Source: Litoreibacter arenae DSM 19593
GTDB lineage: Bacteria > Pseudomonadota > Alphaproteobacteria > Rhodobacterales > Rhodobacteraceae
Assembly (NCBI RefSeq): GCF_000442275.2
Contig: NZ_KE557312.1
Coordinates: forward strand, 62,001 to 126,000
DNA: 64,000 nt
Direction: 5' to 3'
The notes beneath the pieces were generated by a model that ran no database searches, had not been told where the DNA came from, and was given only the letters and a program-made list of their open reading frames with translations. This document shows, piece after piece, positions 9,575-13,557 of the stretch. Within the stretch, counting starts at the first letter, position 1. Every line of letters begins with the position of its first letter. The position numbers and the translations under genes are program-made.

Positions 9575-9675
9575 CTGTTAGCGGCTGTGATACGACATGA
9601 AGCGGGCTCTCGCTGCGGTCGCACCTATTGCTGCTTATGCGCATTTCGCAATCAAGCGACGCTCGCTTGGCCGGG

Positions 9676-9740
9676 TTTCTTATAGGCGCGACCTTAACTA
9701 TATAAGACGTTAGCTTCAGGCTGGATCATTGGTTGGAGAG
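9676..9740 (+). repeat. 65-bp leader repeat, copy 1
   Basis: This 65-bp block and 10153-10217 are imperfect direct repeats with 53 of 65 positions identical by eye. The best conserved part is ACGTTAGCTTCAGGCT, and both copies end in TTGGAGAG, a Shine-Dalgarno-like sequence. This copy lies immediately upstream of the two small overlapping ORFs. The position suggests a duplicated promoter/5' leader rather than a transposon end. Confidence 0.75.
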
Positions 9741-9758
9741 ATGCATACGTAGAATGTG

Positions 9759-9908
9759 ATGGATGAAAACAAAAAGAGTAAACTAGACCGCTTTAAAGAA
9801 GCCGTCCTCCAGCCAGAGACGGACGACGACGAGGAGCGGTTCTATGAAAAGCTGAGGAAGCCGGCGAAACGGAAGCCGAACGACAAGAAGGACGAAGCTG
9901 GCAAATGA
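9759..9908 (+). CDS. Small charged protein, 49 residues
   Basis: ATG at 9759 to TGA at 9906-9908, encoding a highly charged, Lys/Asp/Glu-rich 49-residue peptide with no membrane segment (begins MDENKKSKLDRFKEAV, ends in a KRKPNDKKDEAGK tail). It overlaps the next ORF by 4 nt (ATGA), which supports real coupled translation. The only good ribosome-binding sequence, GGAGAG at 9735-9740, is farther away than usual. An in-frame TAG at 9750 separates this start from the nearer ATG at 9741. Alphaproteobacteria have many short DUF-type charged proteins of this kind, such as those with (E/D)RFxEKLRK near the C-terminus. No function is assigned. Confidence 0.55.
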   Translation: MDENKKSKLDRFKEAVLQPETDDDEERFYEKLRKPAKRKPNDKKDEAGK

Positions 9909-10123
9909 CGGACCATTTTTATGTTACACTTGAGGGCTTCCCTGCGGACAGCGGCGACGTGATCAGCACAGACGGCGAAGTCATCGGCGCTTACACCTGT
10001 GATGACAATGATTACTGTGAGTTCACGCCAAATGGTGCAGATGAACCGGTTGTTTCAGGTTATAACATCGGCCCGTTTTGCAGTGAAGTTGCCGAGTGGC
10101 ACAAGGGCCAACAGAGCGCCTAA
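9905..10123 (+). CDS. Small acidic protein, 72 residues
   Basis: A 72-residue acidic protein (begins MTDHFYVTLEG) that starts within the stop codon of the 49-residue ORF (ATGA). It has no signal peptide or membrane segment. Three Cys (CDDNDYC and FC) and two glycine turns (DGEVIGAY, NGADEPVVSGYNIG) suggest a small beta-rich fold. I do not recognise the family. The second copy of the 65-bp leader repeat follows directly downstream, before the MFS gene. Confidence 0.55.
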   Translation: MTDHFYVTLEGFPADSGDVISTDGEVIGAYTCDDNDYCEFTPNGADEPVVSGYNIGPFCSEVAEWHKGQQSA

Positions 10124-10152
10124 GTCGCGGGTTTGTCAAGGATACAATCGCC

Positions 10153-10217
10153 TTTCTTATAACTGCCGCCTTAACTACGTAAAACGTTAGCTTCAGGCTT
10201 AACCATTGATTGGAGAG
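10153..10217 (+). repeat. 65-bp leader repeat, copy 2
   Basis: Second copy of the block at 9676-9740, the same length, differing at about 12 positions. It ends in TTGGAGAG just ahead of the MFS transporter gene. GGAG (10212-10215) lies 7 nt before an ATT codon at 10223 that is in frame with the transporter. Confidence 0.75.
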
Positions 10218-10261
10218 AAGCCATTTCGGGTCAAGTTGATGCGCAAAGTCTGCGCGGGGTA

Positions 10262-11548
10262 TTGGCGCCGATAAGAACCCTGTTTGGGGCCACGGCGGCT
10301 TTCATAGCTGGCAACAGCCTGCTTGGCGTCGTGTTGCCGCTACGCATGGAAGCGGCGGACTACCCTGTCGCGCTTATCGGCGCGATCATGGCGGCCTACT
10401 TCATGGGTCTTGCCTTTGGAGGCTACAAGGCCAAGCATGTCATCCTTCGAATTGGACATATCCGCGCCTTCGCGGCTTTCGCTGCGCTGACCGCCGCAAC
10501 CTGTCTTGCCTATGAGTTTTTCTTCAATCCGGTAGCGTGGGTGGCCCTTCGTATTATCAACGGGTTCTGTATTGCGGGGATGACAACGTCTATTGAAAGC
10601 TGGCTGAACGGTCGCAGCAGCAATGAGACCCGCGGACGTGTTCTGGGCGTTTACATGCTGATTTTATACCTCGCGATTGCAACCGGCCAGACATTGGTAA
10701 ACGTGGCCCCTGTGGGAGGCAGTGACCTTTTGATGATTGCTGCCGCACTGATCGGTCTGTCTCTGGTTCCCGTTGCCCTGACAAATCTGGGCGAGCCGAA
10801 TCTTCGGGAATTACGTGTTTTGGGTCTGAGAGAGCTATACGCGGCGTCAAAAGTCGGTGTGATCGGCGCGGGCGTTGCGGGAATGCTTGTCGGCTCTTTC
10901 CTCGCGATGGGCGTCGTCTTTGCCCGCCAGATCGGTCTGAGCGTGACGGAAGCCGCCCTTTTCATGAGCACCATCGTGATCGGTGGCCTCACCTTTCAGG
11001 TGCCCATCGGCATGTTGGCGGACAAGTTTGACCGTCGCATTGTCATGTCCTGCATCCTGCTGACGGTTGGAATGTCGTGGATATTGCTGTCAAACTCGAT
11101 TGCCAGAGGGGTGCCACTGGGCGTCTTGATGGCCATGGCGCTGACATTCGGCGGGGCCAACAACAGCGTCTATCCGCTGTGTGTCGCGCAGACTTTCGAC
11201 CGGTTGGACCGGAAATACTACGTTGCGGCATCCGGCCGTCTGCTCATGGTCTACTCTATCGGCGCAACAATCGGCCCCCTGATCGCGTCGACGCTTATGT
11301 CGATCTACGGTCCCAAATCGTTTTTCCTTTTCGAATCCGCGATCGCAATCGCCTATGCGATCTTCGTGCTGTTCAGCATTAGGACGGTGCCGGCATTGCC
11401 TGCCGAAGCCCGGGAAAAGTTTGTGCAGCTTCCGGACATCTCGCCGGTCGCCATGGGGCTGGATCCGCGCACCGAACCAGATGCAGTATGCAGCGCTCGG
11501 AAGCAGGACACATTGCTGGAACGTCGGACAAATGATCTGGACGGTTGA
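10262..11548 (+). CDS. MFS transporter, YcaD-like
   Basis: A 12-helix major facilitator superfamily permease, 428 residues from the TTG at 10262. Visible landmarks are the first segment LFGATAAFIAGNSLLGVVLPL, the loop motif GRSSNETRGRVLGVYM between helices 4 and 5, and GMLADKFDRRIVM after helix 8, as in YcaD-type putative drug or solute exporters. The substrate is unknown. The start is uncertain. TTG 10262 has no ribosome-binding site, whereas an in-frame ATT at 10223 sits 7 nt after GGAG and would add SGQVDAQSLRGV in front. No in-frame ATG or GTG lies between. The conservative start is given. Confidence 0.83.
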   Translation: MAPIRTLFGATAAFIAGNSLLGVVLPLRMEAADYPVALIGAIMAAYFMGLAFGGYKAKHVILRIGHIRAFAAFAALTAATCLAYEFFFNPVAWVALRIINGFCIAGMTTSIESWLNGRSSNETRGRVLGVYMLILYLAIATGQTLVNVAPVGGSDLLMIAAALIGLSLVPVALTNLGEPNLRELRVLGLRELYAASKVGVIGAGVAGMLVGSFLAMGVVFARQIGLSVTEAALFMSTIVIGGLTFQVPIGMLADKFDRRIVMSCILLTVGMSWILLSNSIARGVPLGVLMAMALTFGGANNSVYPLCVAQTFDRLDRKYYVAASGRLLMVYSIGATIGPLIASTLMSIYGPKSFFLFESAIAIAYAIFVLFSIRTVPALPAEAREKFVQLPDISPVAMGLDPRTEPDAVCSARKQDTLLERRTNDLDG

Positions 11549-13482: not shown

Positions 13483-13557
13483 TGGTACTCCCTAGGGGAA
13501 TCGAACCCCTCTTTCCAGGTTGAAAACCTGGCGTCCTAACCGATAGACGAAGGGAGC
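13483..13557 (-). tRNA. tRNA-Glu (UUC)
   Basis: Minus-strand cloverleaf of 75 nt with an encoded CCA end (TGG at 13483-13485 on the plus strand). The anticodon stem CCAGG/CCTGG encloses loop TTTTCAA with anticodon TTC, so it reads Glu codons. The T arm AGGGG-TTCGATT-CCCCT and the D-arm GGTTAGGAC are typical. The acceptor stem GCTCCCT pairs with AGGGAGT, with a G-U at the first pair. Confidence 0.95.

Follow-up and report, generated by a model that had tools for sequence, protein, structure and literature searches.

Why should two unrelated transcription units be preceded by the same short stretch of DNA? In the 64-kb window (the whole stretch of DNA analysed here), an earlier note had described a duplicated 65-bp leader, matching at about 53 of 65 positions and sharing GGAGAG, with one copy in front of two tiny ORFs (orf50 and orf72) and the other in front of an MFS gene. 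The repeat is real, with agreement at exactly 53 of the 65 positions, and the two copies occupy the positions described. Most probably, a short piece of DNA native to the region upstream of the MFS gene has been directly duplicated, and its two copies now bracket what is left of the right-hand part of an IS1595-family transposon. The locus is composed of the following features:

9676 to 9744, forward strand: leader copy 1, the probable duplicate of the MFS upstream region, opening with the 8-bp target TTTCTTAT and identical to copy 2 at 56 of 69 positions
9745 to 9758, forward strand: joint linking leader copy 1 to transposon DNA; the likeness to copy 2 ends at 9744, and the sequence is transposon-like from about 9759
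9759 to 9908, forward strand: orf50, a conserved IS1595-type passenger, 54–70% identical at the amino acid level to an ORF that 13 of 14 intact elements carry
9905 to 10123, forward strand: orf72, a second passenger ORF, whose start overlaps the orf50 stop (ATGA)
10129 to 10152, forward strand: right terminal inverted repeat (TIR), with the TTTGTCAARNATACAATCGCC pattern, recognised by comparison with the termini of intact elements and with their target duplications
10153 to 10221, forward strand: leader copy 2, the native MFS upstream region, starting at the transposon/target junction and agreeing with genome G150 at 36 of 69 positions
10262 to 11548, forward strand: MFS transporter gene with a TTG start (an ATT at 10223 is possible), matching PF07690 MFS_1 (E 9.7e-30)

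The ungapped agreement of 56/69 between the copies stands well apart from the runner-up for copy 1 on either strand of the 64-kb window (33/69), and both copies contain ACGTTAGCTTCAGGCT and GGAGAG. Their likeness breaks off sharply at either end; the downstream extension is at chance level, and a repeat reaching to the start codons was rejected. The 13 mismatches (9 transitions and 4 transversions) are not clustered. The longest perfect run, of 16 bases, is unremarkable, since runs of at least 16 arose in 30% of simulations with 13 random differences. There is thus no sign of a specially protected leader core, and the best conserved core highlighted previously is not significant.

If the leader were a mobile or reused regulatory cassette, carrying a promoter or 5'UTR from gene to gene, it would be expected before other genes as well. 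This idea draws on the presence, before each of the two transcription units, of a copy with a ribosome-binding-like GGAGAG. Searching the genome for more copies, as had been recommended, yielded only the two at the MFS locus, with nothing beyond chance-level matches and no convincing third copy; none was convincing in 61 relatives or 394 family genomes either. Weak matches of 15–26 bases occur in relatives, and the closest of these (L003–L006), on inspection, were chance-like. The leader is confined to two copies at one locus rather than lying in multiple copies before unrelated genes. Folded as RNA, as also recommended, the 69-base copies do no better than shuffled sequence (z 0.7 and −0.3), and in Rfam the only sequence of the window to reach the gathering score is a tRNA (13486–13557), the leader itself having no match; the RNA-leader idea was rejected on both counts. 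A promoter scan found no sigma-70-like site. The lack of convincing further copies, the ordinary RNA fold and the unclustered conserved positions make a mobile cassette very improbable, and this part of the earlier note is not supported. What is mobile at the locus is instead the DNA between the leaders, which derives from the right-hand part of an IS1595-family element.

Several features of this DNA identify it. Directly left of copy 2 lies GGGTTTGTCAAGGATACAATCGCC (10129–10152), which recurs downstream of orf50 relatives in unrelated surroundings. Of 394 family genomes, 39 contain the TTTGTCAARNATACAATCGCC pattern, often as two inverted copies separated by 1.8–2.9 kb, while a control pattern gave 0; its chance expectation in the window is 0, and here it adjoins copy 2. 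The right TIR spans 10132–10152 and reads GGCGATTGTATCC.. inward, consistent with the GG start of IS1595 TIRs. Relatives of orf50 occur on Rhodobacterales plasmids, an IS1595 transposase gene being found close to two of these relatives, and orf72 shares 48% identity with an ORF on a Tritonibacter mobilis plasmid; searches of orf72 for domains gave none in Pfam or PHROGs and only a sub-cutoff NCBIfam match.

Intact relatives provide the reference for these features. Fourteen elements with both ends were identified, 1.9–3.0 kb long, with AT-rich target duplications of 8 bp (exact in 10 of the 14, 7 of 8 positions in two, and absent in two). The transposase contains the Zn_ribbon_IS1595 and DDE_Tnp_IS1595 domains and matches PF12762 (E 5e-33) and the NCBIfam IS1595 model NF033547 (E 7e-56), and 13 of the 14 elements carry an orf50 relative. 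This orf50-carrying group is marked by an orf50 homologue between the transposase gene and a TIR; in the window orf50 is present, and 220 bases separate its stop codon from the TIR. With the passenger orf50, the second small ORF orf72 and the right TIR, the window thus retains the right-hand end of a transposon of this type. The left half is missing: no left TIR was detected in the window at up to 3 mismatches, the fragment has no transposase with the two IS1595 domains, and the genome contains no close one, the best related transposase being 41% identical and located elsewhere. Judged by its sequence, the segment between the leaders is an IS1595-family remnant and does not count as an element in its own right.

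These relatives also bear on two other origins of the repeats. That the repeat begins exactly at the right TIR end would suit an unusually long target-site duplication of 69 bp produced by the insertion of the transposon, but the related elements make 8-bp duplications, and copy 1 carries no left TIR where its inner end lies. Long flanking repeats were found around none of the 14 other elements (local scores of 8–11 against 43 here), so that long target duplications as a general property of the element group were rejected; as a singular event at this locus, we consider it highly unlikely. Still harder to credit are attachment sites, either attL/attR of an element integrated by site-specific recombination or attC-like sites of a gene cassette. 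A small gene pair flanked by direct repeats recalls such an arrangement, but the segment between them ends on its right in the TIR of a DDE transposon, and a recombinase ORF is absent between the repeats. The leader as part of the transposon was likewise rejected, as it matches none of the elements.

The domains and 8-bp duplications of the intact relatives are those of the IS1595 family (PMC8101967). Mobilizable elements based on its transposase are known (tISCpe8 and MTnSag1; PMC5704250), and IS1595-family transposons with passenger genes were reported by Siguier et al. 2009, as cited in PMC12561309. The relatives share with these transposons the zinc ribbon/DDE_Tnp_IS1595 transposase, TIRs starting with GG, 8-bp duplications and extra genes inside, whereas the window copy is a fragment with one TIR and passengers, without transposase, and its flanks are a 69-bp duplication of host DNA rather than an 8-bp one. 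It resembles IS "scars", partial elements without tnp and/or an inverted repeat (PMC12561309), in being a partial element that remains after rearrangement; it differs from them in that its passenger ORFs are still open and are preceded by a copy of the upstream region of a neighbouring gene.

To which gene did the leader originally belong? Orthologues of the MFS gene are 68–81% identical in other genomes, with a 68% one located elsewhere in the congener G001 and identities of up to 81% in other genera. In congeners, the H-NOX and GGDEF genes come immediately after mttB at 14 loci, with no MFS gene between mttB and H-NOX; the ~2 kb from mttB to the H-NOX upstream region is an addition in this genome. 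Copy 2 agrees with the region before the MFS orthologue of G150 at 36/69 positions, compared with 26.6 ± 1.5 for the best offset after shuffling (0 of 1000 shuffles reach it), and the match is in register, the distance to the coding region being equal within 1 base. At the same offset, copy 1 agrees at 31/69, a value reached by 1.8% of shuffles. This in-register homology of copy 2 comes from G150, a genome of another genus, the remaining orthologues being too diverged; conservation of the leader before all MFS orthologues was rejected, since only the G150 match is significant. The in-register match thus marks copy 2 as the upstream DNA that belongs to the MFS gene, and copy 1 as its duplicate. 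Copy 2 starts exactly at the transposon end, we infer, because the insertion severed it from the DNA further upstream. Left of copy 1, the sequence at 9575–9675 has no convincing match in the G150 upstream region or in the intergenic DNA of the congeners (p 0.11 in the test for ancestral MFS upstream DNA). Taken together, the analysis establishes the right TIR, the orf50 passenger, the absent left half and the fact that copy 2 is native to the MFS gene, and the earlier suggestion of a remnant of a duplicated gene start comes close to the best-supported reading.

The order of events can be proposed as follows. The MFS gene and its upstream DNA would first have entered the interval that separates mttB from the H-NOX gene. 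A transposon would then have inserted at the leader's upstream edge, into TTTCTTAT, the 8 bases with which both copies open; this target is seen at the right junction and again where copy 1 begins, and the left junction is lost. Normal insertion leaves an 8-bp repeat only, so the extra 61 bases, the lost left end and the joint at 9745–9758 are most readily accounted for by a subsequent illegitimate duplication/deletion, which would have removed the transposase and left repeat and joined a second leader to the passenger genes. It may have been an unequal exchange in which an empty-site copy took part, or a deletion that followed an earlier tandem duplication; no independent trace of the rearrangement that copied the leader was found at the locus. 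The copies would subsequently have diverged to 81% identity. A variant of this explanation places a tandem duplication of the leader and MFS gene first, followed by transposon insertion into the second leader and a single deletion of the first MFS gene with the left half of the transposon. Its events are ordinary and give identical anatomy, and copy 1 ends just short of the possible MFS start, but no MFS coding sequence remains after copy 1; we hold this order to be the less probable one, though a serious contender.

On the duplication with partial transposon loss that we favour, the locus is mostly an ordinary rearrangement scar, with a flank duplication that is modestly unusual. What appeared to be a shared regulatory element becomes readable as the outcome of transposon insertion and partial loss, which left a second leader before the passengers. 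The GGAGAG of copy 1, before the open orf50–orf72 pair, may be a ribosome-binding site, and copy 1 would likely supply transcription and a site for ribosome binding to this pair, as would copy 2 to the MFS gene. An adaptive promoter capture, in which orf50–orf72 would be co-regulated under the MFS regulatory region, together with a conserved ATT/ATC start of the MFS gene, is doubtful. At 10133–10163, TTGTCA from the TIR and TATAAC from copy 2 lie 19 bases apart, a possible suboptimal hybrid promoter into the MFS gene.

In the window (10205–10265), as in G150 and G079 (1440–1510 of L167 and L170), the usual MFS start (ATG GCN CAG AAC) does not lie in frame. A GGAG-type motif occurs at an equal in-frame distance in all three, followed by ATT (10223 in the window, and G079) or ATC (G150), which is possibly a non-canonical start codon of the MFS gene. 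No further MFS orthologues with which to check this start were found in those genera. By eye, the MFS gene of G150 and G001 lies directly downstream of an apparent Dps/ferritin-like gene and a terminator (L167 830–1560; L025 800–1560).

The comparison also exposed a Rhodobacterales group of IS1595-type elements with a nearly constant passenger of ~50 amino acids and changing cargo, which may merit a study of its own. In L061, L062, L100–L108, L110 and L111, the near-constant passenger (orf50) sits beside variable cargo (PIN, DUF3800, DUF1828), and a cargo protein in L108 matches the PADLOC candidate defence family PDC-M24B. L104 and L105, from different genomes, share the target TAACCTTA followed by ACGCG, perhaps a preferred site.
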